A stretch of 64,000 nucleotides of DNA from Apostichopus japonicus (taxonomy: Eukaryota > Echinodermata > Holothuroidea > Aspidochirotida > Stichopodidae): the NCBI RefSeq assembly GCF_037975245.1, contig NC_092576.1, positions 1,436,501 to 1,500,500 on the forward strand, given 5' to 3'. This document shows positions 2,810-58,189 of the stretch, in pieces (position 1 is the first letter of the stretch; each line of letters opens with the position of its first letter). Under the pieces are notes generated by a model. It did no database searches, was not told the origin of the DNA, and worked only from the letters and a program-made list of their open reading frames with translations. The translations under genes and the position numbers were made by a program.

Positions 2810-5800
2810 ATAGTATATAGCGAATATGGTATGTATAGCTAATCTTATTGGCGATAATAAAAATGCAAACATATCAATTGATATAAACCCGCTCCAGTGT
2901 TCTGGAAAATGTCAAACAGCTATACGGGAACACTTTGTTAGATATGTTATCAAAAAGGAAGATTTGGACTTTATATTAAATAAACTACTGATTGTCTAAA
3001 AATCGGTAGAATTGAAGGTGATTTAAGGAATTTTGGAAATAAAAATCTTTGGTGAAACAAGAAAATTCGGCAGCGACAGCTGGCAGATGGGTTTTGGAGC
3101 ACTATGCTCAACGTCTAGCTCAAAATATGAACGGTCATGGTGGCAACAGTTGAATGTGCTGTGATAGGCCAAGCCATCAGCTATCATATGGTGGGTAGGA
3201 TATGTCAGTTGAACACTTCTATATATGCTCTAGCGGCCTTGGAAAGTGACCACATTAATGTGTAAGTCAATGGGAGCAATTGATAGTGGTGAGACACCTG
3301 AATGAAGAGCTAGGCAGACTGAGAGGCCGCTCTGCACATGCAGTGGAGGGAATATTGTGACTGGCGCCCTCCCTAACCTTACAACTCATAATCGTTACCG
3401 GTGTTATGTTGGGCCGAGAGAAACAAGGATAACCGATGAAAACACGTACATCTGTATACGTACTGGATGCGTTTCTCTACAACTGTATTTTTCTTACAAC
3501 GGCGGATATGTACACGTTATACACTATACAAAGTCATTCATGCATAACACGATGAATATTTTAAAGTGGCTGAGTCTTGGCTGTTACCTATCAGTTGCAT
3601 AGTATAGGTCTTAATAAAGCCAAATGTATGTATTTCTGTACATGTGAAGATAAAGTGGATAAAATTTGTCATTTTAAGTCAAATAACAAGTATTTACAAG
3701 TATTGACAAGTATTTCATATCCTTAACAGATACATTACTTAACAAATATCACACTCCGGTGAGCAAAATTTACTTATAGTGCTTCTCAAATGGCGAAAAT
3801 ATATACATGTTATTAAGGCCATACGTACGGGGAGGGGGTGAGTTGGTAGACATACCCAGTGAAATAAAAAGCCGGTGTCAATCAATGCCAAGTCGGTCTA
3901 AACAAATATGACTGAATTCAGAGTGCTCTTACATAGATGAACGTGAGAGTAATAACTTAAAACAAAGTTAAGAAAACCACACACATACAATCATTCTTCA
4001 ATCATTTTCGTCTACTTTTCCCAGGTTTGGATAATATCTGTCTAACAAGTCGCTTTCAAGAGAACAAGAAATGACTACGCACTCCTACCGCGGCCTTGAA
4101 ATATCTATACCTGAGGAAATTATTTCTTCTCTCTCACATGTAATTTTGTGCCTTAATCTCTCCGGAGGGAACACGAAGTATGTAAATACGCGGCAGCGTC
4201 CAGGTGCTCCACCCTATAGCACCACTAGGGGTATAATAATGTTTCTGTTATATATTTGCTCGCTTAAACTAACGTACAGCGTCCGGTGATTTCGCGCACC
4301 CCATGTCCTCAAGCCGATAGCAGTGTGTATGTTGTAATTATAAAACACACTTCCTGAGTTTGTTGGTTTACTTTCTCGAAACGCTGTTATGCCAGTCACT
4401 GAAGTCGGTCTCAAAATGCTAGTCAGTTCCGAAATGGATCAACACCTCCTTGAAAAGTGGTGAATCTATATGTTCCTCACTTTACTGTCATCTAGAAGTA
4501 TAATACAATGGAGAACAGCAATTCAACCATTGTCTGTTTATTAGCTTCAGTTTACAATAACATTTTAATTTAATCAAAGAAAACACTAAAGTTTACAGAT
4601 TTAAAAATTTAGAAGTTAATAAAGAAGGCTGCATGTGATGTTTGATTGGGAGGGCGACTTCCGAATTATATCATACAACATTAATGTCGGTTACTTCATC
4701 AAACCCGAGCACTTGTTTCTGTGGAAGAGGAGAATACATGAAGTAAGATTCAAGCAATAACCTCTCCAAATGTAATCATGTTGATGTTGACAAATATTAC
4801 AAATGAAAACATAAACTACAAACTAGGGTTTAAACGAATTGAAACTGTTCCTATACGTTGTGATGATTTTACATAACTAATAGACATATCCATTTAACTG
4901 GATTGTTTAAGGTAAAGCAACGGATTAAGAAATACTCTGTCACACCGGCAGCTGGCATCTAAATTACAGTTACTACGGCCGTCCAGAAACAACCGTACTG
5001 ATTCAAACGACTCGAACCACCATATAATTCGGTGGTTGTCGTGCTGGAGAAGTACTCAGTATTATATAGTATCGAGTACATTTTGTATGCACTCGCACTC
5101 GGTGAAAAGTACTCGGGTGATAAAGTAATCTTACTCGTCATTGAGTACTCGTAATCACATGCTAAAATACTCGCACTTGTACCCGATTTAAAGTACTTGC
5201 TTGGTACTTGCTTAGGATGAGCACTTTATAAGTACTTATGTACAGCAATAAAATTCGTTAAATTTACGTTACTACATGAAGTCCCATAATGGTTTTAACA
5301 TTGCACTGTATAATTACTCTGTAATAGTGCAACAATGGTGCGTCTCACTCCACCAGTGTCAAGATGCAAGCAATGTCATCACCTTCAACTGTTTTATCAT
5401 TAGCTTTTAATGACCATTAGAGAACAGTTTAAAAAAAGTATTGTATAATAATTTAATAAATAAAGAGTATTCGAAAAGTACTCGGATTATAACGTACTGG
5501 GAATTTAAAAGAGATCCTGTATTCAAGAGAGGGGCTTGAGAGTATCATTTATGGGCATACACATTGCTCACCCAAGCCAAAACCAAAGTTAGGCTTGGAC
5601 TCTCTTTGGGAATACTTAATTGTTCGTTGCCCTACCGCTCCTTGCTGTTCCACCCGCGCCAGACACCAAACAAATCGCTTCAATTCTGACGGTTTATGGT
5701 TTTATGGTAATTTACCGTTTAATGCATCGGACAGTTAAACGGTTATTGCGAAACTGAATTTGTTTGCCCAAACCCCTCTTTCCCTATGCAATTTTCTCAG

Positions 5801-6975
5801 CGGACCCCAAATGTGGATGCAATTTGTCACATACGATAATCACAACCTTATGATCAGCTTCAATTTGAAACTCCTATGCCTCGGTCCTGTTTTTGCTTAA
5901 GCAAAAGAAATCAACACGTTTCCGGTATCTCGGGCCTGAAAGAGTTTGGTTATCGCGAATGTAATACAGACATAGCTTGTGCTCTGATACAATAACACCC
6001 ATTTAAACCAATATTCTTACACATCGTTCACCACTTAACCTGCAACAGTCTTTGACCACAAACATACTGTTCTTAGTATTCTCCTTTCTCCTTATGCCTT
6101 AATAACTTTTCTACCGACTCTACTTTTTTGAAACTTGACAAAGATGATTACATGTTCTACCTATCTGTTGTTGTTTTCAATTATTTGCGATATATTCAAA
6201 CTCTAAACCTTGACATAGGTTTGTTCGTAAGAAAACAAACAACTGTACATTATAACCACAAGAAAATGCTGTGAAAATAAATCAGCCGGGTATAAAGTAA
6301 AGTGATAAACTACTTACAGCTCTCGCGTATTCGTCATCAGTCATTTTCTGTCTTTTGTGCTGCAGATGCAAATAAAAGGTTTGGCCGGAGCTGTTAAACT
6401 TTAAGAGAAATTCTCTTTCATGTTAAATAAACTGGCATGTATGAAAGGCGGGAACTGTAATATAACTGTAATTGAGATGTATCTAACACTAAGATATGCC
6501 ATATGGGATGACGTATCAAGAACTAGCTTCCGAATGTCTTTAATTTTCTGTACTGGTTAAAATTTTACGTATTGAAAAGATTAGAAAATTTACTCAAAAA
6601 CTATAGATTATATTTCAACATCGATAGGCTATACTCATTTAAGGGTGCAGTAGTCAGCGACTGAGAGAGTAGTTTCGTTTTGGGTGAATTACACGAATGC
6701 CATTTACTAATATCAAACGAGCTTCAAAATGCAACGTAACACATCTCCATAATTTGTACACTTTCATACATAAAATTATGTTTCAAGGGTATGATGAAGA
6801 GCAAGGATTGATAGCAGTCATATACCAATCCAATGACCGTTCTAGCCAGTATTGAACAACTTTTGAGTCTAATAATTCGCTAACAATTATGTATGTTATT
6901 GTCATTCAAGCAGGCCCTCTTTTGTAAAAGGCAAATTGGACGTTTATTAAAGCCCATTTTCAAGGGTTTACTTAC
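2810..6975. other. Intergenic, no gene recognised
   Basis: About 4 kb of AT-rich sequence in which I see no gene. At 5040-5240 'gtactcg'/'agtactt' recurs loosely, a degenerate short repeat. A similar 'actcgg' style block occurs near 18560-18630. Confidence 0.4.
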
Positions 6976-7151
6976 TTCCCATTGTCCTGTTTGGAGATTG
7001 AGGCAATATCGAGATTTGCTTCCTACAGGCAGTATCCATTCCACTAAGAGAAGAAAGTACATTATGAAAAACTGGTTCATTCTAGCGTTTCTCTTCTTGA
7101 TTGTATAGACTTAAAATGTCTAATTAATGAACTATAATCGATTACGATTCT

Positions 7152-7623: not shown

Positions 7624-7700
7624 CTGAAATGTTACGTGTTTCCAACGCTGCCATCGCTTCGCAGTATGGTACTTCAGCGGGAAGCAAGCACTTTCGTAAC
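7624..7700 (-). CDS. Gene A candidate exon 8: LRR continuation
   Basis: A 77-nt block lies between an acceptor ('cacccgcag') and a donor ('gtaata'). Joined in phase 2 to the preceding LRR exon it reads [19 protein letters not shown] and onward, giving 'FR-LRKCLL', which continues the L..L.L..C.L spacing of the previous leucine-rich unit. It ends in phase 1. The support is the phase fit and the LRR-like spacing; the exon is short and the donor is not strong, so it could be fortuitous. A further block at 6976-7043 has an acceptor and a GTAAGT donor but does not look like LRR, so I did not add it. Confidence 0.35.
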
Positions 7701-10700
7701 CTGCGGGTGATATAAATTTACCGGCCATCTTTATTTATCTTTAATTTAGATTTAATTCCTCTTTCCTCTTAATCGCCAAAAATTTTAATGTATTACCGTA
7801 TCAAACACTTCTTTCAAATGAAACTGGTAATTCTTCACGCCCATTTAACAGCACTTAATCAACATCTTCCATGAAACGTATACTGTGTAACTATAGTACA
7901 TAGTATAGTTTTTGTAGAAAGTCATGGAGAGGATTTTTGTGAAGCGTGTACACTAAATTTCATATATGTGACTTCATCACAGCCGGAAATGTCTAATTAC
8001 TGGATACATTCCTATTTGTAAACAGTACATAAGTTGTCTAGTCGATCCAAATTTAGGGATCAGTTTTGTATTAAAATCAAGAAACTGACAAAGACAGAAC
8101 AACGTAGCAAGGCGATTGAGTCTTTTTGTGCTTTAACATGTTAGTTGTAAGGTACTAGATGAATGAGGGCATTGTTTGGAAATTTCGTTGTAATTATAAG
8201 GACCTCAATTTGCTAGCAGAAGTATATACTTAATGCTTGTAGAGTTACCCTGAATCTTATAACACTACATATGCGGCTCATTAATCATCATACAGGCTAT
8301 ATATCGTAGGCTACAAACCTGAATCCCGTCATGCTTTGACATAAAGATGCGTATTCCAGAAGGCCGGCAAATTCATCTTCCGTAAATTTGGTTGAATGTG
8401 AAATAGATAACTGTTGCAGTGTCTGAAGTACTGAAAGTTGTACACCTGAACCAAACTCAAGATATCCACGCTCACTACTAAACGAAACTGTTAATGTATC
8501 CAACCACAGAACCTCTATATGGATCTATCACCAAAGAGAAGTGGGAAAGAAATCAACATCAATGTAAGAAAGTCTCTTTTAATCAACATATGTTATGAAA
8601 TGACAAACATTGAGTCTCTAAATGACGTATTATATTGTCTCTAATAGGAATGCCTTCTTTTCTGTCAGTAAATCTCAAATTTATGTTTTGTGTCGAATAT
8701 CTATACCGGTGCTGTGGCCGAGTGATAAAGGCGGTGGCTTTTGAAGCAATGAGGCTTATCAATCGGGAGGTTCGGGTTTCGTTTCCCGCCCGGGCCATAG
8801 TAAGGTAGGTTTTTCATCCAAGAGCAATCTACGGTTTTCTCATCTTTCTAAATCGAAAGGATCCCAAATGTGAGTTGAAATGATAAATTGGAAGCCACCC
8901 GACGTGTAAGTTGTAATCCATAGCCCTTGCGGGCTTTTCCCACATTTGCGGTCGCTTAAGCGTCGTAAAAACTAACTTATTATTATTATTATTGTTATTA
9001 TTACATATTTAAAGGTTAAACTGTTGTCTGGAGTAGCAGAGTAACTAATTAGAAAGATCATGGGCGGCCTACTCAGCTTTTTGATTATTGAGTTTGAAAG
9101 GATTTCGAAGTTTAGCAATCGGTAACCGATGCGTCGGTGTTTGCTATGAAACGACATGCATGTATGTAAGGAGACGTTCTATGTTGATGTGACATACAAA
9201 GATGATAAAACAGATACTTACATGATATTTAGAAGCGGTTTCCAACAGCTGTACCACGGATCGTTGATAAAGTACACTATCATCATCATCAATGGTGACT
9301 GGCTTTGAACAAAGCTTTGAAACCATGCTATTAACTTTCTTGGTGCCTCCCTTCTGTTCTGCAATGCATAACTGGGCAAACTTTTCGTAGTCACCGCCTT
9401 TCTTTTCTAAGTACTTGACGATATTCACAGCTGCTTTCTCATTTAGCCCACAGGCAAAGCGAAAGACGTATTGATGATTAAGAGGGTTAATCTTGTCCAA
9501 AGTACGACGCAGTAAATCTCTTTGTTTAGAATGTTCAGCTATTCGGGATAATTCTTGAGCTGCGTACCACTCCAAGAAAATGGCATGGTAAAATTTAACT
9601 TCTGTTCGCTGGTTCGTTCTGGTGGACTTACCAATGGTATAATTGACAACTTGCTCCTCAATCAGTAATCCCAAAGTGGTGTATTTATCGTACAACGTTT
9701 TCCCTACTTTCGGTTTGAGCTTTTCTTTTTTGAACCGGAAGCCTTTTTGTGATTTGAGGATACGCTTAAGAGCTACGGATTCAAGTTCTTTGTCATAACC
9801 GACTACAGTATTCAGTTGTTCCCCATCGTTAACATTGTCCTCTGTTTCTTCTTCATACCGATTTAAAGCCAATACAATCTGATGAAATATTTCGGTTACT
9901 TTTCTTGCATCATTTTTGATGGGAATTTTTTTTTGATAGCTGTAATGTGACAATAACACAAAGAATAACGGGACGTGACAAAACTTAGATATTTCAGGAT
10001 TTTTCTTAAAGAATGAATTGATGATTTCCTGAGCTTTTGGATCACTTTTAGCTACTTTTTCACGAATGTAGTCATTCCGAGCTCTGTCACTAAATCCCAC
10101 TAACTTCATTCTTTTAGTGATAGGAGCGTAATTTGCTGGTAAAAAGTTTGGCAATGCAGTCAGAATTACTGTACAGTTCTGAAACATTTTGTTCATCAAA
10201 ATGTGGTTAAGTTCGGATTTTTCATAGCTACCACTAACTGGAACTCTGTTGAAACCATCTAAGACTATAATTGATGACACAGACGAAAGCAGCCCTTTTA
10301 TGTCTTTAGTACTCAAATTGGTATCGATTGGTAAAAGGTGGTGTTTTATTGCAGTACATAAAGGTAATTCTGCTAATAACCTTGCATGCAGATAAATGAG
10401 AATATCAACCTTCCCAAACGGGGAAGATTTATCTTCAGAATACCAGTCGTGAGCTATTTTGCAACACAGCAGAGTTTTACCAAACCCAGAGTCTCCCTGT
10501 ATGATAACCCTATCGTAATTCTCACTGTCATTCCCAATTATTGAATGATGAGAACGCAGGTCGGTCCACCTTTCCTCTCCAAGTACATTTTTCGACCATA
10601 CTTTCAGACCCCCGTCAATATATAATTCATCTATGCAATATGTACTCGTGCTGTTCGGTAGAGGTTTCAAGGTCTCACAGATTTCTTTATATCGCTTTTT

Positions 10701-10824
10701 TAACGCATTCCTTAACGTAGCTAGTTTTCCTGGACACAGGAAAGAGGGGGAGAAATAAAAATATGTATAGATATATAAATATATTCCAACTCACTACAAT
10801 TGCAATTATATATATAAATATATA

Positions 10825-10915
<91 letters not shown>

Positions 10916-13900
10916 TGGCAAGACAGTAGAAAATCATCCCATAATATCCCCTTCTAGTAGATTATAACCCTGCATTCCTATCATTAATAAGATGCTGCAT
11001 AGAACCTCAATTGTGAATGCTATGCATTCTCCAAGGATTTATGGAAAAAATGCCCACAGTAGCTGAATGTTAACTTAAACATAAGCAATGTAAACTTACC
11101 TAAATTTTCAGGAGTTAACATGGGCAACATCTGCAACATTAATAAAATCAAATGGAAAATGGAATTACTTCTCACAGTCTCTTAGTCTTTTACCATATCT
11201 TGACATAATTTTGAACCTGTCACAATAAATCAAAACTTATATATTATTTATAGAATTAAATGGAAAATGGAATTACTTCTCACAGTCTCTTAGTCTTTTA
11301 CCATATCTTGACATAATTTTGAACCTGTCACAATAAATCAAAACTTATATATTATTTATAGAATTAAATATAGAGAAAGACGAGTTTAATTTGTTTCGTT
11401 AGTTACTGAAATCGAATGTGACTGTAGCAGTCTATGTATTTCAAAATTCAAAGTTTTCTTACGTTGAGTCAAGATGTTATTGGCGTTTGTGTGGTAAAAT
11501 TTGGTTAGGACTACTATGTCGATTAAACATGTAGATGAGATTGATAACTTTGAACAATGCCGTCTTTAAATGGGTTTGTTGTACATGTCATTTTAGACTT
11601 ATGTTTTCCGTTGAATGTTCAACTTTAAAGCTAATGGCTCTGTTTGGAAAGGGTTTAACTATCGACTGTTTTATTAACATTGCTGTTGACAAAGAGGTTA
11701 TTTAACTGGATAATTGTCTTCGAATGACAACCGTCAATCATTTGTGATGAGACTGCAGTAATCTTGCCTTAATAGGTCAATAGTTTAATTTGCATCCGTG
11801 TTTAGGTGCACGAATGATTGTCTATGGTGTAACAACTATCGATAATTTTAATAAAAATTGTAGTTTGACAAGCGTTAGGAATTGTCAATATACTCTTATT
11901 AATTCCAGAAAATGTTATAGTGATAGCATTAGGCACGGCAGGGCCCATTTTGCAGCGAGACGGCTGAAACCACAATTGATCGAACTTACAATTCTCTGTG
12001 AAGTCAAGACAAAGTTAATTTTTTGACTTATTCCGATCTTTCCTTTATTTATTTTGCGTTCATGCAAGTGCATTATTTTGTTATCGGAATTTTTCAATGA
12101 AACTTTTAGGCATGCATGGCAAAACTCACCCCCCCCCCTGGCTCTGCCGTTGCTGATGATAGGAATATGGATGTGACAAAACGCAGGATTTTCTATGAAA
12201 AGGATTGTTTTCTGAGTATTTAGTCACTCCAGGTATGATGCTATTAAGATGTTCAGTTGTTATTCAGTTGGTGTATATTTGAAGGAAAAGGTTTGCTGAT
12301 GTTGGTGTTGTCCATTGAACTTGAAACGGAGTAGGTTCTGTGGATATTGGTTTGCTACTATATTATTTGTTAGCAGTGTAAAATAACCATCTGTTATCGT
12401 AACGCTGTATAAATAACTGTCTAAATACCTCGTCATCCACAATGTCGGTGAAGTTAATCTTCTTCCAGGCTGTTAATAAAGAGAAAACGTATAAAGTGTG
12501 TCTCATTTATTCGTGTATTGGCGTCTCCATAGACCATAGGCACCTCCCATCCATAATGATGCCTCATCTACCAGCCTTTATAAACTTGTCAAATCTACGT
12601 AAATTTCTTGTTTTTATTTAAATATGACAGAAATATGATTACAATCTTGTGATCATTTACAAACAGTGACATTATTTATCGAAAACAGTTTAAATCAAAA
12701 TTGAATGATGATTCATAAGATGATAACTTTTCCTACACCATGTGAATCATACTCAAGAGCATATTACTCCATACAGCCACTGCAATGTTACGTATAAACA
12801 GAGGTAAAACAATAATGTTTAATATATTCAAATCTTACCAATACTCCAAAAAGTATCTTATTATCATGTTTTTTATTATGTCAGGGATTAAGAGAGATAA
12901 CAAAATCCCAAATCTTTTCCACAATAACATATACAAAAGACATTGAACGTCCATTCTTTCCACAATGTGCGTTGGTAACACAATCGCTTTCGACGAGTTT
13001 TGCACGGTTTTGGTATAATCATTACCTCTTTTGAGCTTACACGTTGATGTAGGAAGTACGTTCAATGTTGTGAGGCAGCGCCTGCTTTAAAGAGTTTTTA
13101 GTCTGGGGTAGCAGGGGTGGTAAGGTGAGCATTAACTTCCAATGGCAGTGGGACATAGGAATTTTGATATGGGGAGCAAGCCACAGAGTTACTTGAAAAG
13201 TTTTTCCTATTTAAAATGGATCCTCTGTGCATTCCGTACCACAAATTGCAGTATTTCAATATTGGTTTTTTTTTCAGAAGGGGTCACATTCTTATTACGT
13301 CTTTTATATTTTAGCAAAAGGGCATCTCTTTGACAAAACGGACACTTCTTATTATCCAAATTATAAACTGATTGTTTGTATTAACAAAGGGAAACTTGTA
13401 ATTGATGGAAAGGGCACCAATGTGTTTCTTAACAAGACTGTGTATGTGTTGCAGGGTGAGGATGGCAATTGCCCACCCCCCCCCCCCGCCCCAACACCCT
13501 GTGCTCTCCGGGTTTGAAATCCCTGCTGTGATGTATATTGACATCAAAAGTGTACGCCCTTATGAATTATATTATTAGTGGCCCAACTTACCCATAGATT
13601 TCTTGCAGGAAAATGATATTGCTACTATCACCGCAATAGTAAAAGGAAACACAAGCGACAACGAAAATAATAATTTTCCAAGTGTGGTAGACAACAGTTT
13701 TTCTATCGTTGACATCTCGATCACTGCGTGGAAAACAAATAAGTTCAAAATAAATAATAATGAGACTAAAGGAGTTTGTATAAAGATTGACTTTAATATT
13801 TTCTTTCAGTAAAATTAAGTATACTACTTTTTGGCTTGGATAGGAAATGGGTCATAAGATGCATAAATTAATGTAAAAACTCACCTTGCGGAACTAGAAG

Positions 13901-16688
13901 GTCGAGTCGTTTTGACCAGGTCGACCAATCCAGGGGTAAATCTACATTTTCATCTACAAAACATTCCACTTGTATAGTGTCAGATGAATCGTCCTCGGTA
14001 GAATATTCCGACGAGAATGTTATGTCATAAGTGGATCCTTCGCTTGCTTCTGTAACTGTCAATATTCCTTTTTGGAACTTGTTTTGAGACGATTCATCAA
14101 CGAAACGCCATTGAAGTGAAACAATCGGACGAATTCTGTGTAATCTACAAGTTAGTGTTCCAGTTCGTTTGACAGAAAGCAAACAATTCTGTTGTGCGAT
14201 GCAACCGTCCACGGTAAGGTACTGAGGATTAGGTTGAACTGTAAGAGCCGATGAGAAGAATCATTGTTGTAACTTTCATAGTGATATAGATTAACATGAT
14301 AGGCCTGATCAATAGTGGGATATAATACTGTTCTGTATAGTTCATCGTGAACATGTAGCAAAAGAAGAATATTCATCTCAAACGATAGACTTTTCAATCT
14401 CAAAATATCAACTTATCTTGAGGAAAAACTTCGACGAATTATTGAGATATGAAACAAAGATGTTATTGTTTGACGATTAGCTGTCAATTTCCACGTACGG
14501 GAATGTACTTCACGCATTTCGTTTACAGCGATACCGATAAGCAATACACTGCATGGGGCATGCTTGCTGTGTTCAATTTTTTTAAATGATTATAGTTAGT
14601 TATTATTGGTTGTGAGGCTTGTGTTCAATGCTAACATTTACTGTTCTTTACCTAAATATTGGCAAGGAACCATTATAAATCCATGGCTTTTTGATTTTCC
14701 TTTCACTTAACGCAACACGGACAACAATGTTCAGAGCATCCAACTTGTCAGGGATTTCAAAACCATATTGAGGATGTATCTGTTCTTATCTTATCACATG
14801 TTATCCTTCAAGGAATGTATGTTTGCGAATTTTAGTACAGGAAACGTACTCGTTTGGGATGTTTTCACTGTCTCACTATGACCGTTTCTTGTGAAATAAT
14901 GCGCTTTTGAAAACAAATGCATTTAAATTAAATATTGGCAACGACTGTGAAAGAAATAGATTTCCTTTTGGAAATTCAATTTCATCCTACAGAATGCAGC
15001 TGAAGCCAACTGTGTTCGGTAAACATTCTCATACAAGACATCGTTACAGATGAAAAATGATACAATCACCTACCGTATACAGTGATGTTGACTGTTGTTA
15101 CCTTCTCCCGTATCCCATTGCCTGTGACGCATGCGTAAATACCGTCATCTTTTACAGTAATATCAGGTATCACCAAATTACTGTAATTTGTTATGTAATA
15201 TCGGTCATTTGTTTCATTTATCCAGTAACCTTGCCACATTACATTATATGCGATATTGTGAGCCACAACTTCAGTCTCCTGTCTTATCCATATGACGTAG
15301 AGTGTTGAATTATATGAGCTACATGAGCAGTTGATATTAACGTTTTCACCCTTTTCTGCAAACATTTGTACAGGCTTGACTTCAGTGCTATTAAAACCAT
15401 TACTGCTTTGTACAAGAATCGCTGTTTCGTTATTCTCCATCAACACTGGAGGTTCGTTAACTGTGCAAACATATAGAGTTACAAAAGCCCTGATAGGCAA
15501 ATTCATAACAACTGTCGAGGTATGCAAATGGTTTTGTTGTTGTAGCAAAGGAGTTGCCATCAACTGTTCATCTCCATAGACTGTTCTTGTCACTAATGTT
15601 AGGTTCACGGCAGGTCTTGAGTCGTTAACGTAGCAGAACATCATCACTGGTTGATCGATTTTCCAGAAGCAAACTCTTTTGTCTCCACAAATGTTGATTG
15701 TAGGAAATTTCTGTCTTGGTTTTACTGTGAGTCGGAAAGCAAAAGCCATGGATATATTTGTCTATATAGTGAACAAGGGTATATAGATGCTTTGTTGAAA
15801 ACATAAGAACCTTAGCAGTTGACTTCTTTCCCCTTGGGAGACAAGGTTATTGTGAAGGAAATAAGGAACTGCATCTTGACTAGTTCTGTAGTTAGAACGA
15901 GATTTGTTTTACGTTTCTATATCTCTCAATAGTAGGATTTCAATCACTATAATGACCTCAGTATTGACATATATATACAACACTTTAATTAAACGCAAGG
16001 AAGATTCATCGATACTTTCCATAGTGTTGATATTTTAGGGGAAAATTGGTCGCTTTGTACTTACCTATGGCAAAGACTGAAACGTTGATTGTTACCGGTG
16101 CCTCCGTTATGGCTTTAAACATAATGACAGTAAAAACATGCTCGTGTTGAAGGGAAACATTTGTAATAACAAGAGAGCCATTTGGAAAAACGTCAAATTC
16201 TCCGGACAGATAACCTTCTCCATCTTTCTGTGAATTTGTGTAGTAAATTATCGGTCGAGACTCATCTGAAACCTCAGTTGAATTATACCAATAAACTCCA
16301 AAAAATTGATCAACAAAGGCACAGCTAACAGTGCCAGGTCGCCCAAATTCTAGATACTGGGGAGAGTTGCATGCTGATCCACCTTGTTCACCTACATAAA
16401 TGATAATTATAAGGAAAGAATTTATTAAAATGAGTTATGTCGAATAATCAGATGGTTTAATGCACCATATGACATGTTGGTGTCTACCAGATGCAAATTA
16501 GACGAGCACCCGTGTACTGTGTTACATAATTATTTTAATTTCGATGGACGTAAGCACCAAGCAATGCACACAAGTCAGTTATAACAAATACTGGCCACTA
16601 TGGAATGAACAAAAATCTTACCTGATGAAAAGCACGTGATATTCACATAAACAATGACTAATGTGATGGTGAGAGCAGTCTTATCCAT
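7624..16688 (-). CDS. Gene A: Ig(x4)-TM-NACHT-LRR receptor (whole locus)
   Basis: This is a predicted multi-exon gene transcribed leftward. Exons in order: 16688-16622 (signal peptide), 16391-16065 (Ig1), 15724-15074 (Ig2 and Ig3), 14238-13885 (Ig4), 13723-13592 (TM), 10729-9222 (NACHT), 8512-8319 (LRR) and 7700-7624 (LRR, weak). Every junction from exon 1 to the NACHT exon is phase 1 with GT/AG ends. The predicted chain is about 1,100 residues: signal 1-22, Ig 23-466, TM about 483-503, NACHT 511-1013, then LRR. The NACHT exon has no in-frame ATG before its P-loop, so it must be spliced to an upstream exon; the TM exon is the nearest with matching phase. The predicted topology is a surface receptor with an intracellular NTPase. 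The terminal exon was not identified. NLRs are usually soluble, so an Ig ectodomain is unusual. Joining of the two halves in one mRNA is inferred. Confidence 0.7.
8319..8512 (-). CDS. Gene A exon 7: leucine-rich repeat segment
   Basis: About 64 codons contain leucine-rich repeat patterning: LDTLTVSF, then [20 protein letters not shown] and [11 protein letters not shown]. The spacing resembles ribonuclease-inhibitor-type LRRs at the C-terminus of animal NLR proteins. The acceptor is read as 'tatagag', which gives phase 0 and fits the phase-0 end of the NACHT exon. The donor is 'AG/GTTTGT', leaving phase 2. Using the AG two bases earlier would shift the frame away from this match. A SINE sits in the intron between this exon and the NACHT exon. 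LRRs typically serve ligand sensing or autoinhibition in NLRs; that role here is inference. Confidence 0.5.
8706..9004 (+). repeat. tRNA-derived SINE, copy 1
   Basis: The head is tRNA-like, with a box A ('tggccgagtgataaagg') and box B ('ggttcgggtttc') and the style of a Ser/Leu tRNA. A unique body follows ('aagccacccgacgtgtaag', 'gggcttttcccacattt') and then a trinucleotide (ATT)n-type tail. The same head-body-tail order recurs at 29718-30003. The copy lies in the intron between the NACHT and LRR exons of gene A, antisense to the gene. Its box motifs are better preserved than those of the second copy. Confidence 0.8.
9222..10729 (-). CDS. Gene A exon 6: NACHT NTPase domain
   Basis: A single 1508-nt exon encodes about 503 residues (predicted 511-1013). 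It opens with a basic helix ([20 protein letters not shown]) and a 'LKPLP' lead-in typical of invertebrate NLR genes. Next come Walker A GDSGFGKT (about 589-596), Walker B-like IIVLDGFNR (about 664-672), a sensor-like [11 protein letters not shown], the [11 protein letters not shown] motif, a '[10 protein letters not shown]' helix and a C-terminal '[12 protein letters not shown]' motif matching the F.H.tf.EY.AA signature. The family (STAND ATPases) oligomerises on nucleotide exchange to signal. Unusual points are that DE of the usual DGLDE is NR and the sensor Arg of TSRP is replaced by Ala. The acceptor is phase 1 ('cctgtgtccag') and the donor is GTAAGT in phase 0. There is no in-frame ATG before the P-loop, so it is an internal exon. 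Confidence 0.9.
10805..10914. repeat. (TA)n microsatellite upstream of the NACHT exon
   Basis: A nearly pure TA tract lies about 75 bp upstream (in the gene's sense) of the NACHT exon acceptor. Any Tyr/Ile open frame here is repeat translation. Confidence 0.95.
10915..13591 (-). other. Gene A intron between TM and NACHT exons
   Basis: A 2.86-kb intron by the exon model. It contains the 108-bp tandem duplication at 11150-11365, a C-run at 12127-12138 and a second C-run at about 13479-13489. I see no further open exon with protein-like composition, but a short cytoplasmic linker exon could be missed by eye. Confidence 0.5.
11150..11365. repeat. Perfect 108-bp tandem duplication
   Basis: Two adjacent copies, beginning 'aaatggaaaatggaatta' at 11150 and 11258, appear identical along their length. 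A few bases of a third unit follow. The identity implies a recent duplication or assembly slippage. Confidence 0.9.
13592..13723 (-). CDS. Gene A exon 5: transmembrane segment
   Basis: This exon has 132 nt, is phase 1 at both ends, and lies between 'ccacgcag' and a GTAAGT donor. It encodes a short juxtamembrane stretch ([16 protein letters not shown]), about 20 hydrophobic residues ([14 protein letters not shown]) and a stop-transfer basic end (CKKSM). This gives single-pass type I topology with Ig domains outside and NACHT inside. It lies 161 bp from the Ig4 exon. Gene B has the positional equivalent at 46854-46969. Confidence 0.8.
13885..14238 (-). CDS. Gene A exon 4: Ig-like domain 4
   Basis: A 354-nt exon of 118 codons, phase 1-1, acceptor 'ctcttacag' and donor GTGAGT. 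It encodes an Ig-like fold: a CIAQQNC motif, B-strand Cys in TLTCRLH, a core Trp in SLQWRF, and an F-strand-like Cys in VECFV. It is exactly the same length as its gene B counterpart (47251-47604), which keeps the Cys residues but changes the Trp. This is the membrane-proximal extracellular domain. Confidence 0.85.
15074..15724 (-). CDS. Gene A exon 3: Ig-like domains 2 and 3
   Basis: A 651-nt exon of 217 codons, phase 1-1, encodes two Ig-like domains in one exon. The first has a CGDKRVC pair, B-strand Cys in [11 protein letters not shown] and F-strand Cys in [10 protein letters not shown]. The second has NINCSCSS, a core Trp in YVIWIRQE and the canonical [11 protein letters not shown]-strand. 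Several N-x-S/T glycosylation sites support an extracellular location. Ends are acceptor 'ccgactcacag' and donor GTAGGT. The in-frame ATG upstream of the acceptor lies in intron sequence and is unlikely to be the start. Confidence 0.88.
16065..16391 (-). CDS. Gene A exon 2: Ig-like domain 1
   Basis: A 327-nt exon of 109 codons, phase 1-1, acceptor 'atttatgtag' and donor GTAAGT. It encodes a V-like domain beginning [17 protein letters not shown] with a B-strand Cys (TVSCAF), core Trp (GVYWYN) and an E-strand '[11 protein letters not shown]'. The F strand reads [10 protein letters not shown] and lacks the usual Cys. Gene B has the same substitution (HEHVFTVVMF), so it is a family property and not damage. 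A second Cys near the N-terminus may provide an alternative disulfide. Confidence 0.85.
16622..16688 (-). CDS. Gene A exon 1: start codon and signal peptide
   Basis: The exon starts at ATG (16688) and encodes [19 protein letters not shown] and a few residues more, a hydrophobic secretion signal. It then meets a GTAAGA donor in phase 1, the standard signal-exon arrangement of Ig-superfamily genes. The start is chosen because it is followed directly by the hydrophobic core and the frame closes into the phase-1 Ig1 exon 230 bp away. Gene B has an equivalent 52-nt exon. Confidence 0.8.
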
Positions 16689-19219: not shown

Positions 19220-19547
19220 ATGTCAGCAACGAAACTTGTTATCACGCTATCATTTGTTTCATTTATATCTGTCGGGCTCAATTTTCCGCCGGATCATCTG
19301 TTCGTTCCATTAGGACGTTTCGTAGTGTTAGATTGTGTTGTCGAAAGTCAGTCGAAAAGTTACTGGAAAAAGGAAGAAGACGTTTTATATATTGCCAGAA
19401 TTCCTACTTATCATAGATTTGCTGATTCTGTTTCACTGGCACTAAATTATTCTATTATTGTAAACTCTGTCAGTTCTGCACATGAAGGATCTTATAGCTG
19501 TTTTACTGGTAACATCACTATTGCAACATATACTCTCGGAATCGAAG
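19220..19547 (+). CDS. Gene C exon 1: signal peptide plus single V-like Ig domain
   Basis: ATG at 19220 (context 'tcaccatgt') opens a 109-codon exon. Residues 1-19 are a signal peptide (MSATKLVITLSFVSFISVG). Residues 22-109 form one Ig V-like domain with B-strand Cys39, core Trp49 (SYWKK) and F-strand HEGSYSCF with Cys94, the classic 55-residue spacing. The donor is 'GAAG/GTTTGT', phase 1. It is a clear paralogue of gene D, sharing SYW.K, FAD..SLA.NYS and HEG.Y.CF.GNIT. The gene is divergent from gene A. Downstream exons were not identified with confidence: the next 2 kb is a tandem triplication carrying copies of this exon's 3' end. A secreted or short receptor product is inferred. Confidence 0.75.
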
Positions 19548-20130
19548 GTTTGTATCTGAATCGGTAAATTTTTTTAGTAGATACACCACTTCAGTTGAAT
19601 TTCAAATTTTCATAATTCGGTTCATATAGACGACAAGTTGAAAAAGTTAAGTTAAACATGTGGCACGCAACATCTTTCGACTTAATATACAATGGGTCTG
19701 TTCTGACTTTTAACAACGCTGTAATATTCTTACACCTATAATTACGATATGACTTGAAGTTCTACTTTGTATGGTTTTAAGTCACCACAGACGAAAACCC
19801 CAGGTATTGAGAATTACTTTTTATAAGGAAACTACTAAAGGAAAGTATATATCAATTTGTGACACGTTTGTGATGCCTTTTTATCTGATTAGTTAATGAA
19901 ACCGAAGGGTTTCACCTCAGAGTCTGGTATAAAGCTGCAGTAGTTTCCTATACAATTACTTCAGTACTGAATAGAACCACTCACTCAGAAAAAAGGGTAG
20001 TACCATGAATTACTTTCGAATAGGGTATTGTTAACAAAGAGATACATATTTAATTCAAGAGGTAACAAGTTACTAATTACCCAGATTGTGATGGTATTTC
20101 ACATTATTTACTTTTATTTAAAATTTTTAG

Positions 20131-37010: not shown

Positions 37011-37354
37011 GTTTTTTACACCAAAAAACAAAAGAAAAGAAAGATGAAAATAAATATCACTGAAAATCAAAAAAAAAAAATAAAGGAAAAATACCAACAA
37101 AATAGAAGGAAAATAATTATATGAAGAAACGACTCTCAACGGATAGTTTACAAGTTGTTTATATGAAAGACAAAAAGTAACATACACAGATCATCGGATA
37201 TCTGCATCCATTCCAAGAATCAAACACATCCTTCCTGTTGAAATGCATACGGTCGATATGTAGAGGTAGGCTTACGTAGGCTTTAATGCTATGAAGTAAA
37301 GGCTGATGGTCTAGCAGTATAGGTCTTCAAATCTGAACAAGACATATGATATAA
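37011..37354. other. A-rich spacer, no gene
   Basis: A-rich on the plus strand (37020-37110), otherwise featureless. Confidence 0.4.
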
Positions 37355-43737: not shown

Positions 43738-46853
<3,116 letters not shown>

Positions 46854-46969
46854 TTAGCAAGTGGTATATCTTACGCATATTTTTTTTTCTCCAATTATTG
46901 TACATATTACTATCAGTAAGAGAATATTCAGGCACACCGATAGTACTAAAGCGACGGATACCTTGTCAT
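46854..46969 (-). CDS. Gene B exon 5: transmembrane segment and stop
   Basis: The acceptor 'tttcccgcag' in phase 1 is followed by a short acidic/basic linker (DDKVS), a strongly hydrophobic stretch (VALVLSVCLNILLLIVICTI) and the tail GEKKICVRYTTC then TAA. GTAAGA within the tail codons could act as a donor in phase 0, differing from the phase-1 donor of the gene A TM exon. The simplest reading is a terminal exon giving a receptor with almost no cytoplasmic domain. Confidence 0.65.
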
Positions 46970-49900
46970 CTGCGGGAAAAAAAAGATAAATCTTTATATA
47001 AATAGACAGAAATGACTTTTCTAAAGTTTAATTTCAATTGGAAGAGATCCCTCTTTAAATTGTTAAATTATCCATAATATATAACATGTTTTAAACGAAG
47101 CTAAGTATCCGTATTTTCACAGTTTACATCAACTATTAAACTTAACTGCTTGTATTGAAGGTGTGTATACATTTTTTTTGCAGATAAGAATGGTTTATAC
47201 GATGAATTAAAAAATAACTATATGTTTGAATAATCGAATGCACGAGTCACCTTTCAGAACACGAAGGTCCAATTCTGTTGCCAAGTCTGGCCATTTCAGT
47301 GGTAAAGGAATATTCCTTTCAACAAAACATTCAACGGTTACTTCGTCAGATGACGCATGGTCAATATAATATTCCGAAGAGTATGTTATATCATACGACG
47401 ACCCGTCAGGCGATGTCTTATAGGTTAAATTCCCATTTTGGAACTTGTTTTGAGACAAATTATCAACGAAGCGACACTGAAGTGAAACAATCGGTCGTAT
47501 GTTGTGTAGTCTACAAGTCAATATCCCAGTTCTTTCGATCAAAAGCAAACAGTTCCGATTTTCAATGCAACCGTCAACTGTGACTTGTCCCGGACTAGGT
47601 TTGACTGTAAAAGACAAACAGAAGTAACACATTTTGTGAATTTCACATGATATTTGATCATCATATAGTCAATATGTCATTTAATATTTCAATTATCATT
47701 ATTGAATAACGTTATGAGACTTACAGAACGTAAACCTTTGATAGCACGATTTAATTGATGGCAAACCGAAATTTTTGTTGAAGAATGCATCTATGCATAA
47801 TCCAAGCACCATTCTAATAAAAGCACACTGGTATCACATCAGTAGGTTTTTCGGAGTAATAAAATAACCTGCTATGGATCCTGATATTAGTTGCCGTTTT
47901 AGGTTAATGCGATATTAGTACTTCTTATGATGTTGCAATGGTATGTACATGCATGGGCATGAGATATTTTAGTTTGTTGGATATCAGTTGCAGGAAGTAG
48001 ATGTCTTATTTGTTACCATTTCAACGGCTGGCACGGAAGTGCATGGTGTGAAAGATTCATGGTGGGGTTCATCACGGCCATACAAGAAAAGGTGACGGTA
48101 TGTGTGCTGGGTGGGGGGGGGGGGGGTTGTGTGCGTGCGTAAGGGGCTAACAATTCTTTCGCGAACCCTTGTAAACAGTTAACCTGATGGACTTTACATT
48201 TTGAAGATTTGTGCTTGGGCATTGGGTGTGGTTCCTCTATGATCTATGACGGCATATGCTGAAAACCTAGAAAACCATGTAGGATATCAGACTATGTAGG
48301 TTCGCGGCGCATTAATTACCAAACGGTAACAAGTTCACTCTATCAAAGAGCTCAAAGGTAAAATATTTGCAGATAAGTGAGCAAAAGGAGTCGCTAAATA
48401 ATAATAAACCATAAGGTCTATGAACTTTAAACTTGCATTTCTCGCACCAAACGCTCGATGCTCGGTTTCGCAGAATCGGTTTGAAACCAAAAGAATGTAC
48501 CTTCAGCTTCTGCCAATCCCCCTATCCCATAAAGAGAAGCAATTAGGTATTCCTTATGCACTAACCAGACCTAAAGTCATATGCGAAGCCCAACCTTATA
48601 TGATGTTCAAATGATCACGGAAGTTCTTACAGGTCAAGTTGTAACTATACGACGATTTTAACGCTGGATTATTTGAAACATTAAAGAACACAGCTGTAAC
48701 AAAACCTACCGAATACGGTTATGTTGAAGGCTTTAACTTCTTCCTGTATCCCATCGCCGGTAACACATCCGTACACACCCTCATCTTGCACAGTTACATG
48801 ATGTATCATCAAACTATTTTCATCATCCAATGAATATCGTGCATAAGTATGATTAATTTGGTAATCTTTCCACATTATCCTATATGCGATATTGTGATCC
48901 ACCTCTTCAGACTCCCGCTTTATCCACATGACGTAGAGCATTGGACTAAATGAACAGTTAAGTTGGATCGTGTCACCCGTTTCCACGAACATGTTTACCG
49001 GCTTAGCAACATCAACACCTCCTCTGCTTAGTACCAGGATTGCACTGTGGTTATTCTCCATCAAGGTCGGAGGTTCATCAGCTTTACAAACATAGAATTT
49101 TACAATGGTTTTCATGGACAAATGGACGGCAATTGTCGTTGTATGTAAATATTTTCGTTGTTGAAACATAGATGTTGACATCAAGTAGTGGTCTTCATAT
49201 GCTGTTCTTGTAGCAAATGTCAAGTTTACGGCTGGCCTTGAGTCGTTTACGTAGCAGTACAACATTGCTGGTTGATCTATTTCTCTTAGACAGACTCTTT
49301 CTTCTCCACATTGATCAATTTTTGGAAATCTCTGAGAGGGTTTTACTGTAGGTTTTAATGTAAATGCAAATATGTCGTTTGTGTGTCAAGAAAGCAGGCA
49401 GTACTCATATATAGAATAATGGGACCCAAATAAAACCTATTGTGCTTTGAATAACGACGTAGGCCTATATTGTAGGCAACACATTCGCCAAATAGCTTCG
49501 TTGAATCAGGGAGGTGTTAAAGACTGAGTAACAAAGAAATATTGAACAGTTTAAGTTTTGTGCGATGCCGAATTAAAACTGATATTGTTTCAAAACCTAT
49601 TGATACAGTGGCAATGTTATCCCATAAACGCGAATTGAGTACTCTTTTGAACTTGGAATTTTGATAACATTTCATGTCTCTTTTTACTGCTCGCATGAAC
49701 TTCCAACAACTTTTTTAAAAGTACATCTATATACACTAAGACTTATTCATAGTCAATTACCGAAGTTTTGACTATGAATTGGCCGCTAAAGTATTGTTTA
49801 TACTGTGTAGATTACTGTGAAAGTTCTACCATTCCTCAATATTAGTTATGCTTCTTTCAAGAAGAAATTAATTCTGGAACCCATCTTGATAGCAACTCCC

Positions 49901-52534
49901 TTTGTAAGCAATATACACTCAAAATTATAAATAAGTGGAGTCCAGTGACCAGTTCAGAACTAGTATGTCTACGTCTTGATTACAAATTGAACATTTTACA
50001 ATCTTACTATAGCCAGACGTGAATATAAAATGCTTTGACATTGAAACAATGGTCTAGTTTTGTCTTAGTTTTGTTATAATGGTATAGCAGTGATTTATGC
50101 CCCCATACCTTAATATGCTTACCTGTAACGATGACCATGACGTAGATTGGCACAGTTGTTTCTACTTTGGTCCTAAACATAACAACTGTGAAAACATGTT
50201 CATGATGGAGAGAAACATTGTTTATAATTAGAGTGCCATTCGGCAATATATCAAACTCTCCAGATAGGTAACCAGTTCCATCTTTCTTGTAATCTGAATA
50301 GTATAATATCTGATCTGAATCTGATAGGTTGTTTGAGTTGTACCAATAAACTCCTAAGAAATCTTCACCAAAGTCACAGTTAATAGTCCCAGATCGCCCA
50401 AGTTCAAGATATTGTGGAGAGTAACACGGAGATATACTTTGCTCACCTGTGAAAATAAGTAGTCAAATTATATTTTTAGAAAGTGCTTGCAAACATTGAC
50501 ATTTTCGGTAATTGTGCCACCTGTGTGTATAGAGTACATCATTCACGTTTGATCATAGTGTTTATAATAGTGGTTATGATTATGATTATTGTTATTGTTG
50601 CCGATCTTACCAATCATGTTTCACGCTCTTTACTGAGAATGTAGGTTGTAATGAGTGGAATAAGAATTTGCTTAAATATTATTTTTCAAAATAATCCACC
50701 AAGACCCCTTTGTTTTAAAGTGACACTCCTTAATTAATGAGCAGACGAGATATCTCTTGGAACAAGTACTTATACGATCCGATCAGCTGTTATTATTTAT
50801 GTCTCCTTCCTGACCCCTTCTGCATGAATTGTTAAACAAAGCGCGATTTTTATCAATTGAAATGCACGTTGATATGCTAAGGACATGCATGTTAACTTTA
50901 CGACTGGATTCCAAAGTTTCCTAGTCAATTTTTCATCAGCATCTTTACAGTTTCTTTGTAATTATTGAAATGTTGTTTATACTGATTATCATCATCTTTA
51001 TAATTGTAAATATAACTTTTGATCTCATTTCCTATTGCAAAATTTCCCTTTTTTCACTTCCAATTGGCTGTAAAAGTTGTAATTTAATTGTCTTAGATAT
51101 AGGTTCAACTTGTTTTACAAAAGGGAAACTAACTATGTCATTAAACAAACATTTTAAAGACATGCATACGATAAAATAGAAAACTGATGGCACACTATTT
51201 TTATTTTTGGGATGCCTAAACAATACCGAATTGATCTTCTCAGATACAAATTTCCCATTGACCTTATCAATAAAACTTAGACGATACATATATGCCTCAC
51301 TTTGTAAGGATTCACATTGACTTATAAACTCAAACTAATTTTGAATTAAAATATCTATAGTGGATTAAAATCGTGACAAGATTCGGAAGTATGTAAACAT
51401 TGCGTTATGGTAAGATAACACTTTGTGCTTTATTCACCGATGCATTCTAACAATCACAAAGCACTTGACTGTTGACATTTTCAAAATGCATTCTGACAAT
51501 CATGCCATATTAGTGTTTTCTTAACTCACTGCACATTGTTTATCGTGATGACATGATGTAGTAAGCTATGCCTTGTACAACTGCAGTCAAACGAAGTCAA
51601 TTGCACTACATAGAACATGCAAACTACAATTCATATCCTGTTTAAATATAGCAACCGTTTTAAAGAACAAACACAAACGGCAGACAATGACGCATGCAAC
51701 ACAAGAGGGAAATTCTAAACCTGCAAACGTTACTAACACCACAATGGGGTTGGGAGGATCAACTTCAACAAAGTCGGGGATTCTTTATGATTTAATCTTG
51801 AAGTTCCTTTTTAATTCGTATAATTACTTTTTATACCAAAATTTAATCGTATATCCACTTGACAAGATTCTTCAACTCTAGTGTGAAATCAGCGCAGGGT
51901 CTCATATATCTCTCCATATAGCACGAGCTGTTGAAGTGTGCGGAGATGCTGTCTATTTTTTTAATACAATGATTTGGTGTTTTGAATTACTGTCAAGGAA
52001 GAGGACCAACATAACATGAAAGCCTGACAATAAATTAATTTTAACATAAAACATATAAACGTTAAAGGATAAATGACGTTTATCAATTATATATGTTGCT
52101 GAATTATGGTATGTTATTGTGTGCAGTAATAAGCTTACTGGCATGATCCCTTAACTTCCGGTAGCGGCTTAAATAAAAGGATTAAGAGTAACACTGACAC
52201 TGCAGATTTGCATCACCATGAAGCATATATATATTGTCGACTCAGATACTGCAGTGTAACAAACAACTTTTTAAATTGGATTATGTCAGCAACAGATATA
52301 CAATTAAGCAGTAATTGGTCGAGATTTCTGGTTAGATATGTTGAGTTTGGAGAACTACAGTATAGAACATTCAACAGTTATCTTCGATTTATCTCAGGTT
52401 CTGATTTTCAATATGGCATATACAAATAATGATAAGATTATGATCAAAGAACTTGCTTGCAATGTAATGAAAATAATCTTACCTAATGTAAAGGCCATGA
52501 AGGTTGCACACACAAAGGAGGCTACCTTATTCAT
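46854..52534 (-). CDS. Gene B: Ig(x4)-TM receptor lacking NACHT (whole locus)
   Basis: Paralogue of gene A transcribed leftward. Exons: 52534-52483 (signal), 50446-50123 (Ig1), 49345-48710 (Ig2 and Ig3), 47604-47251 (Ig4) and 46969-46854 (TM and stop). Exon phases match gene A throughout and exon lengths are nearly the same (324 against 327, 636 against 651, 354 against 354). The predicted protein is about 493 residues: signal 1-17, Ig 18-455, TM about 460-482 and a tail of about 12 residues ending at TAA. An alternative is that the GTAAGA inside the tail codons acts as a donor to a distant exon, but no NACHT frame exists within the remaining 46 kb on this strand except that of gene A. Gene D is its divergent neighbour. 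Confidence 0.75.
47251..47604 (-). CDS. Gene B exon 4: Ig-like domain 4
   Basis: A 354-nt exon, phase 1-1, acceptor 'gtcttttacag' and donor GTGACT. It is closely homologous to gene A exon 4, sharing VDGCI, the ILTCRLH Cys, RPIVSLQ, SYDIT.SSEY and VECFVE. The core Trp of gene A (LQWRF) is Cys here (LQCRF), adding an unpaired cysteine to the domain core. Reading frame and splice sites are intact. Confidence 0.85.
47605..48709 (-). other. Gene B intron 3
   Basis: 1.1-kb intron between the Ig4 and Ig2-3 exons. It contains a G-run at about 48113-48126 and no further exon. Confidence 0.6.
48710..49345 (-). CDS. Gene B exon 3: Ig-like domains 2 and 3
   Basis: A 636-nt exon, phase 1-1, acceptor 'aaaacctacag' and donor GTAGGT. 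Domain 2 has [17 protein letters not shown] and FYVCKADEPP. Domain 3 has QLNCSF, YVMWIKRE and the canonical DEGVYGCVTG F strand. It aligns with gene A exon 3 throughout and is five codons shorter. N-glycosylation sites are present. The visible in-frame ATG (MLYCYVN) is internal to the domain and not a start. Confidence 0.88.
50123..50446 (-). CDS. Gene B exon 2: Ig-like domain 1
   Basis: A 324-nt exon, phase 1-1, acceptor 'ttattttcacag' and donor GTAAGC. It starts GEQSISPCYSPQYLELG, has the B-strand Cys (TINCDF), Trp (GVYWYN), '[11 protein letters not shown]' and 'NGTLIINNVSL', and the F strand HEHVFTVVMF without Cys. Strongly similar to gene A Ig1. Confidence 0.85.
50447..52482 (-). other. 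Gene B intron 1
   Basis: 2.0-kb intron between signal and Ig1 exons, much longer than the 230-bp equivalent in gene A, so sequence was gained here. At 51060-51180 a plus-strand frame has a loose C..C...H....H arrangement followed by a stop; I do not consider it a gene. Confidence 0.55.
52483..52534 (-). CDS. Gene B exon 1: start codon and signal peptide
   Basis: ATG at 52534 opens MNKVASFVCATFMAFTL, a hydrophobic signal peptide, ending at a GTAAGA donor in phase 1. It parallels gene A exon 1 (MDKTA...). The frame joins the phase-1 Ig1 exon. Confidence 0.75.
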
Positions 52535-54205: not shown

Positions 54206-54280
54206 GGTTGAGAAACGGACAGGAAGGGGTTAGCTAAAACCTTGTTTCAAGGTTACTACTACATGTAAATAAGTATAATT

Positions 54281-54597
54281 ATCATATACTGAGTTTCATA
54301 AAATGTTTACTGATTGTTATCTGTACGACAGAGGTGTAAAATTATCATATACTGAGTTTCATAAAATGTTTACTGATTGTTATCTGTACGACAGAGGTGT
54401 AAAATTATCATATACTGAGTTTCATAAAATGTTTACTGATTGTTATCTGTACGACAGAGGTGTAAAATTATCATATACTGAGTTTCATAAAATGTTTACT
54501 GATTGTTATCTGTACGACAGAGGTGTAAAATTATCATATACTGAGTTTCATAAAATGTTTACTGATTGTTATCTGTACGACAGAGGTGTAAAATTCC
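54281..54597. repeat. 63-bp minisatellite, five copies
   Basis: A 63-bp unit (landmark 'atgtttactgattgttatct' at 54303, 54366, 54429, 54492 and 54555) is repeated five times with no difference I can see. Because 63 is a multiple of three, one frame stays open for about 100 codons with a 21-residue repeat (MFTDCYLYDRGVKLSYTEFH plus one residue). There is no sign of translation. Confidence 0.95.
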
Positions 54598-58059: not shown

Positions 58060-58105
58060 GAAAATCGTAATGAGTTGGAAAATCAAGAACAGTGAAAAAA
58101 CTTTC

Positions 58106-58178: not shown

Positions 58179-58189
58179 TGATTGTATGT

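Follow-up and report, generated by a model that had tools for sequence, protein, structure and literature searches.

Results

A Receptor Gene of Thirteen Exons

The stretch of DNA considered here (the window) comprises 64,000 nucleotides of the sea cucumber Apostichopus japonicus (contig NC_092576.1, positions 1,436,501 to 1,500,500 of the forward strand), and it holds on its minus strand two related receptor genes, which we call gene A and paralog B. Gene A is our subject. Judging from its exons and from their agreement with AjNLRC4, a published protein of the same species, it very probably encodes an AjNLRC4-like type I membrane receptor: a signal peptide, extracellular modules of immunoglobulin (Ig) type, one transmembrane (TM) helix, a linker spread over two exons, a NACHT module on the cytoplasmic side, and a tail that lacks leucine-rich repeats (LRRs).

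Thirteen minus-strand exons, running from 16688 to 4671 in window coordinates, make up the gene; all of its introns are bounded by GT and AG, and the joined frame stays open for 1183 codons and then meets a single stop, with an AATAAA about 130 bases beyond it (near 4540). The phases, in order, are 0-1, 1-1, 1-1, 1-1, 1-1, 1-0, 0-1, 1-0, 0-2, 2-1, 1-0, 0-0, and 0-stop. Exon 1 (16622..16688) carries the start codon and the signal peptide, assigned by hydrophobicity only. Exon 2 (16065..16391) encodes module 1, a V-set Ig domain; exon 3 (15074..15724) encodes modules 2 and 3, the latter an Ig domain of V/I-set type; and exon 4 (13885..14238) encodes the Ig-like module 4. A stalk and the single TM helix follow in exon 5 (13592..13723), the helix spanning residues 483-505 or thereabouts, with its hydrophobicity peak at 484-502 and the residues CKK directly after it; hydrophobicity identifies it, and the TM helix of AjNLRC4 lies in the same place. 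Two small exons, 6 (12429..12469) and 7 (11100..11130), supply a cytoplasmic linker of 24 residues, and exon 8 (9222..10729) encodes the NACHT module, with the P-loop GDSGFGKT and with VLDGFNRV at the Walker B position. A C-terminal tail of 146 residues comes from exon 9 (8319..8524; without a known domain) and exons 10 (7624..7700), 11 (6976..7043), 12 (6318..6359), and 13 (4671..4718), the last of which encodes KQVLGFDEVTDINVV and the stop. Each of these five tail exons has a counterpart in the AjNLRC4 gene, and exon 13 has one in paralog B as well.

The initial annotation of this DNA, made from the letters alone, had described a phase-matched chain of signal peptide, extracellular modules, TM helix, and NACHT module, and the chain is indeed in frame, bordered by GT and AG throughout, and free of stops. 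It had also ended the gene at 7624 and given it LRRs. The end was set too early, because exons 11 to 13 follow and carry the gene some 3 kb further on. As for the LRRs, no LRR model matched the 146-residue tail at expectation (E) values up to 10, a range in which the filters of HMMER drop most matches above about 0.1, and we have accordingly given up a NACHT-LRR identity for gene A. Nor did Pfam scans of exons 2-4, of exon 8, and of linker, NACHT, and tail (exons 1 and 5 lay outside the scans) return any LRR, CARD, or death-fold model. Held up to a classical animal NLR, gene A has the NACHT; the C-terminal LRRs and the N-terminal death-fold effector domain were not found in it.

The Extracellular Modules

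Four Ig domains had been counted in the extracellular part, and it is likely that all four modules are of this kind, although only modules 1 and 3 are recognized as such by profile. Module 1 matches Pfam V-set at 2.7e-5 with 24.8 bits, just below the cut-off of 26, and when it was searched against the PDB together with its counterpart in paralog B (the two agree at 60% over 108 columns), it found the V domains of CEACAM proteins, the best at 6.6e-5. Module 3 matches V-set at 1.1e-8 and, again with paralog B in the query, has 164 matches among PDB sequences at E up to 0.01. Heading the list are contactin and Robo (from 2.7e-11), whose values are sums of several weak stretches; T-cell receptor V domains (from 3.2e-5) align across almost the whole module.

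Modules 2 and 4 went unrecognized as Ig by Pfam profiles (for module 4, “ig” reached only 0.082), and the PDB profile search returned nothing for module 2 and a best E of 0.15 for module 4. The two are alike over 43 columns (E 8.3e-5, probability 61%). A model of module 4 is almost all beta at low confidence (mean predicted local distance difference test score, pLDDT, of 46), and a fold search with this weak model gave nothing below E 0.001, the listed rows including FLT3, antigen-binding fragment (Fab), and MHC chains with TM-scores of at most 0.47 of the query.

AjNLRC4 and the Join to NACHT

Does the NACHT exon belong to the same gene as the Ig exons? The initial annotation held that it must be joined upstream, with the TM exon as the nearest candidate, because both the end of the TM exon and the start of the NACHT exon are in phase 1 and no ATG lies within the NACHT exon before its P-loop. 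All three observations are confirmed. Exons 6 and 7 had been missed, however, and with two in-frame ATGs in exon 7, the lack of an ATG in the NACHT exon does not by itself force an upstream join. Support for the join comes from AjNLRC4.

A 2021 paper on A. japonicus (PMC8699970) presents AjNLRC4 (MN607598) as a membrane receptor and places its Ig domains at 31-132 and 251-353, its TM segment at 483-503, its NACHT at 600-757, and a predicted second TM segment at 776-795; the protein is reported there to have neither LRR nor CARD. Taking primers from Table 1 of that paper, we searched the genome with EX-F, allowing 2 mismatches, and obtained one match with 1 mismatch; the same pattern read backwards, as a control, gave none. 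In the 20 kb of this locus, EX-F and EX-R each match at 24/25 bases, qF at 22/22, and qR at 20/20. Read from the locus DNA, the AjNLRC4 gene runs from Ig1 to the stop in 12 exons (borders chosen by eye with gene A as guide; signal exon not located), its phases are those of gene A, and the two proteins have 360 identical residues over 1115 aligned positions (32%). Linker exons in phases 1-0 and 0-1 are present in both genes examined, with 47 and 31 nt in AjNLRC4 and 41 and 31 nt in gene A.

The published protein can be laid over this reading with the help of its LRTD caspase-1 motif, which is reported at residue 177 (PMC11932488). With LRTD set at 177, AjNLRC4 has its TM segment at 481-501, its P-loop at 605, and its hydrophobic NACHT stretch, CQIPLFFVLFAHITF, at 780-794, and 22 residues are left for the start of the protein, which is the number of whole codons in exon 1 of gene A. 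If the 26 linker residues are taken out, the P-loop moves to 579 and no longer lies within the published NACHT. In other words, the published map calls for a join of Ig, TM, and NACHT plus about 26 linker residues from both small exons. The published small interfering RNA (siRNA) fits the spliced Ig4-TM junction at 17/19 bases by hand count, vs. 15/19 for the unspliced DNA. An alternative in which this siRNA codes for FDEV, as in a last exon, was dropped in view of the junction match at the locus, and a small frame seen by eye between exon 7 and the NACHT exon there was set aside as being out of phase with exon 7.

One might still prefer two adjacent genes, a short-tailed Ig receptor and a cytosolic NACHT protein of its own, with an ATG in exon 7 as its start codon. 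Besides offering those ATGs, the DNA has a stop not far beyond the donors of the TM exon and of exon 6 when the frame is read on through either (by eye), and paralog B is an example of an Ig-TM gene without NACHT. The matching phases of the AjNLRC4 gene and the published protein map, which fits the fused splice with its linker, nevertheless make two genes very unlikely, and the genome-wide arrangement described below argues the same way. For annotators, the practical message is that two tiny linker exons should be looked for, as without them the chain easily splits into two genes. Directly upstream of exon 7 lies a tandem repeat (11138-11369; 108-bp unit, 2.1 copies) that could affect the splicing of that exon.

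Several points weigh against our reading of gene A as one AjNLRC4-like receptor. The gene is known here from genomic DNA alone, and the AjNLRC4 gene was likewise read from genomic DNA. The linker exons are short, and a crude splice filter allows three one-exon and five two-exon open bridges in the TM-NACHT intron, with exons 6 and 7 forming one of the five; a direct TM-NACHT join that skips both is open too, although we dropped it as the main form because it misfits the published AjNLRC4 map. As the AjNLRC4 borders were set by eye on gene A, the short tail exons do not constitute independent evidence. Neither primer IN-F nor primer IN-R matches anywhere in the 20 kb of AjNLRC4 locus DNA (L010/L011; best 16/25 each), so the published intracellular construct may derive from another copy or allele. 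There are seven N-glycosylation sequons in the cytoplasmic part of gene A (counted in a 1131-residue model), and AlphaFold, given the NACHT exon alone, returned a mean pLDDT of 34. Finally, the LRTD of AjNLRC4 is TRTV in gene A, and the reported caspase-1 function may therefore not carry over. With all of this in the balance, we consider that the exon chain and AjNLRC4 give good support to the central proposal of the initial annotation, an Ig receptor anchored in the membrane with its NACHT in the cytoplasm.

An Altered Walker B in the NACHT Module

Exon 8 matches Pfam NACHT at 7.4e-12. Its nearest solved relatives are NLRP3 (2.2e-4) and NLRP6 (0.0026), and the 15 PDB sequences found at E up to 0.1 are all one or the other. 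Walker A is complete. Where NLRP3 has LMDGFDEL and TTRP, gene A has VLDGFNRV and TALP; that is, an N-R stands in place of the usual acidic pair after the Walker B aspartate. Of the 20 distinct NACHT exons compared, four (gene A and its three closest relatives) carry DGFNR or DSFNR, and the other 16 carry an acidic pair (DE or EE). Those three NR relatives lie on contig C16 at 22.85, 23.22, and 24.12 Mb, each with an Ig2-3 exon upstream, and are 38-41% identical to gene A; the four copies form one clade with support of 100/100, for which the tree tool warns of long branches. At the sensor position, gene A has TAL, one relative (L015) has VTT, and the other two (L013 and L014) have TTR.

The acidic pair of Walker B and the sensor residues matter for hydrolysis in STAND ATPases. 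Since gene A has exchanged the acidic pair for N-R and kept its P-loop, we infer that its NACHT would bind nucleotide and hydrolyze it slowly or not at all, and that its role may be closer to that of a scaffold than to that of a cycling switch. Two observations count against giving the clade too much weight: L013 and L014 are nearly identical, and the P-loop of L014 is changed (GYEKS), although it is intact in the other three NR copies. The NR change is a shared change at a catalytic site, and it is directly testable.

Might gene A simply be a pseudogene in decay? Its Walker B and sensor-1 residues do differ from those of most paralogs compared. All 13 exons are open, though, with splice signals intact, and decay would hardly keep an NR that is common to four copies in one clade. 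In addition, the Ig exons of gene A and paralog B, taken overall, differ by 0.28 nonsynonymous (dN) and 0.87 synonymous (dS) substitutions per site, which indicates purifying selection on average since the two genes split. We regard decay as quite improbable.

Paralog B and the Rest of the Window

Paralog B, also on the minus strand, has a module 1 exon at 50123..50446 (dN 0.25 and dS 1.13 vs. gene A), a modules 2-3 exon at 48710..49345 (0.29 and 0.80), and a module 4 exon at 47251..47604 (0.30 and 0.81). Its TM exon (46875..46969, phase 1-0), placed by eye, has no match to the TM exon of gene A, and its last exon (45703..45808) is the counterpart of exon 13, beginning with KTFLGFDEV where gene A has KQVLGFDEV. 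Read in all six frames, the window contains the motif GFDEV only twice, once near the start of each of these last exons. Between the TM exon and the last exon of paralog B, no match to the NACHT of gene A was found. A signal exon at 52534 is one of five candidates.

Two single Ig-type exons with hydrophobic starts lie on the plus strand (19199-19549 and 56123-56503), each head-to-head with one of the receptor genes; they match Pfam Ig_3 at 1.5e-4 and V-set at 0.0024, respectively, both below the curated cut-offs. It looks as though a block of gene A and its V exon was duplicated as paralog B and its V exon. Frames resembling a reverse transcriptase of the long interspersed nuclear element (LINE) type were seen by eye between the receptor genes (35870-37015, minus strand) and at the right edge of the window (62627-63043, plus strand). 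At 54273-54595, a 63-bp unit is repeated in 5.1 copies at 99%, with one frame open throughout. At 58105-58179 (minus strand), beside a long AT repeat, ARAGORN (bacterial code) calls a tRNA-Cys gene with anticodon aca, and the Rfam tRNA model matches there with 45.9 bits; the tRNA type is doubtful.

Ig and NACHT Across the Genome

With the Ig2-3 exon of gene A as query, 117 places in the genome were found. At 44 of them, the same strand carries a listed NACHT match 2.2-12.7 kb downstream; within 15 kb, none of the 117 has one upstream on that strand or anywhere on the other strand. A control with rotated positions (for which the sizes of contigs C1, C9, C11, and C15 were guesses) averaged 1.0 over 500 trials and never exceeded 6. 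A second NACHT search, with the AjNLRC4 exon as query, covered 70 of the 73 remaining places and added 4 more, all downstream on the same strand, bringing the arrangement to at least 48 of the 117. Our lists of NACHT matches do not cover every candidate (106 of 488, 85 of 566, and 87 of 611 candidates were scored), and 48 is therefore a lower bound on arrangements and not a count of intact genes. By the same token, the 69 places with no listed NACHT within 15 kb, 3 of which were outside the second search, are not to be called NACHT-less. Chance adjacency of Ig and NACHT we have dropped as an explanation, given 44 and then 4 cases downstream on the same strand, none upstream, and a maximum of 6 under rotation. 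The same one-sidedness, 48 of 117 downstream and 0 upstream, also speaks against the pair of adjacent genes considered above.

Viewed from the NACHT side, 44 of 183 merged matches have an Ig2-3 match upstream. Six NACHT exons were sampled by hand from different places. The closest paralog among them (L024) has Ig1, Ig2-3, and Ig4 exons upstream, and the other five (L025-L029) have no Ig match within the upstream 5.8 kb, from which it appears that Ig-TM-NACHT is one of several NACHT kinds in this genome. Other large kinds may be present on contigs C7, C12, C17, and C22, which hold many full-length NACHT exons 33-37% identical to gene A; one exon sampled on each of these contigs has no Ig within 5.8 kb upstream, and some copies on C12 do pair with Ig. 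Clusters of Ig2-3-like exons at 5.17-5.99 Mb of C16 and on C11, with no NACHT among the candidates scored, are possible NACHT-less receptors like paralog B.

Discussion

Which Way Does the Receptor Face?

By the textbook, NLRs of animals are cytosolic, and Ig recognition outside the cell joined to a NACHT inside it breaks that rule. The inverse orientation has been claimed for another protein, AjNLR-new, for which, in the published description, TMHMM puts Ig inside and NACHT outside and a recombinant NACHT bound coelomocytes (PMC13133943). For gene A, we find this arrangement most improbable. Its N-terminus is hydrophobic and resembles a signal peptide, there is one TM helix and then CKK, and the mature extracellular part has 13 N-glycosylation sequons vs. 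7 in the cytoplasmic part. To judge from its published description, the N-terminal “TM” of AjNLR-new is probably a signal peptide too, and the inverse topology may come from taking it for a TM helix.

There is also the matter of the second hydrophobic stretch, which in both AjNLRC4 and gene A sits in the part of NACHT alignable with NLRP3, and which is similar across the paralogs compared. The first part of the second TM stretch published for AjNLRC4 aligns with the NACHT region of NLRP3 (CHVPLFF vs. CFIPLVC in the alignment of gene A with NLRP3). We therefore read the published second TM segment of AjNLRC4 as a putative helix of the NACHT module, and this would be a simple account of a disputed feature.

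What Might Such a Receptor Do?

AjNLRC4 is reported to sit in the plasma membrane, to bind microbes through its Ig part, to form dimers, to mediate uptake involving actin and Arp2/3, and to activate caspase-1 (PMC8699970, PMC11932488). By analogy, gene A may act like AjNLRC4 in its membrane location, its binding of microbes, and its link to actin. Modules 1 (V-set) and 3 could bind microbial surface ligands or each other, the resulting clustering at the membrane would bring the cytoplasmic NACHT modules together, and the NACHT cluster might recruit actin and Arp2/3 to drive phagocytosis, as reported for AjNLRC4.

A larger picture can be drawn, and we offer it tentatively, thinking it possible but rather doubtful. 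There may be a large surface repertoire of Ig-NACHT receptors, grown by tandem duplication, in which the branch of gene A, having lost its catalytic acids, is a nucleotide-locked scaffold under Ig control and in which NACHT-less sisters like paralog B, with their related ectodomain and last exon, serve as decoys or tuning partners. If that were true, we would be looking at a paired system of activating and dampening receptors built on NACHT.

Both functional reports that we found concern single genes, with opposite topologies (AjNLRC4 and AjNLR-new). The genome offers a different view: at least 48 arrangements of Ig followed by NACHT in one genome, with two genes, gene A and AjNLRC4, read through to the stop in matching phases. 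In the accessible portions of the literature searched, we did not find gene A, paralog B, the exon plan, the family count, or the NR clade. The design is another matter. Ig-TM-NACHT is already known, having been published in 2021 (PMC8699970), and Ig V-set NLRs were published from another sea cucumber in 2022 (PMC8913654), so the novelty that the initial annotation implied for it does not hold.

Comparison With Known Systems

Vertebrate NLRP3, a cytosolic protein with PYD and LRR in its family name, shares the NACHT with gene A and has the Walker B LMDGFDEL.

Among proteins of sea cucumbers, AjNLR-new (PIK48001.1, 1197 amino acids) is like gene A in having Ig, TM, and NACHT in one chain and in its similar length (1183 in gene A); its topology as published, with NACHT outside and Ig inside, is the inverse of that of gene A, the two being compared here by published description only (PMC13133943). 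In the apodid sea cucumber Chiridota heheva, a 2022 report gives 53 NLRs, of which 6 have other domains, Ig V-set among them, and 1 has LRRs (PMC8913654). These share the combination of Ig V-set and NACHT with gene A, and we liken them to it on that pairing alone.

The comparison with AjNLRC4 goes furthest. Three short motifs set the two proteins apart, DGFDE, TTR, and LRTD in AjNLRC4 vs. DGFNR, TAL, and TRTV in gene A, and these parts of the plan are common to both: the order of domains, the positions of the TM helix, of the NACHT, and of its hydrophobic stretch, the phases of 12 exons, and both of the small linker exons between TM and NACHT.

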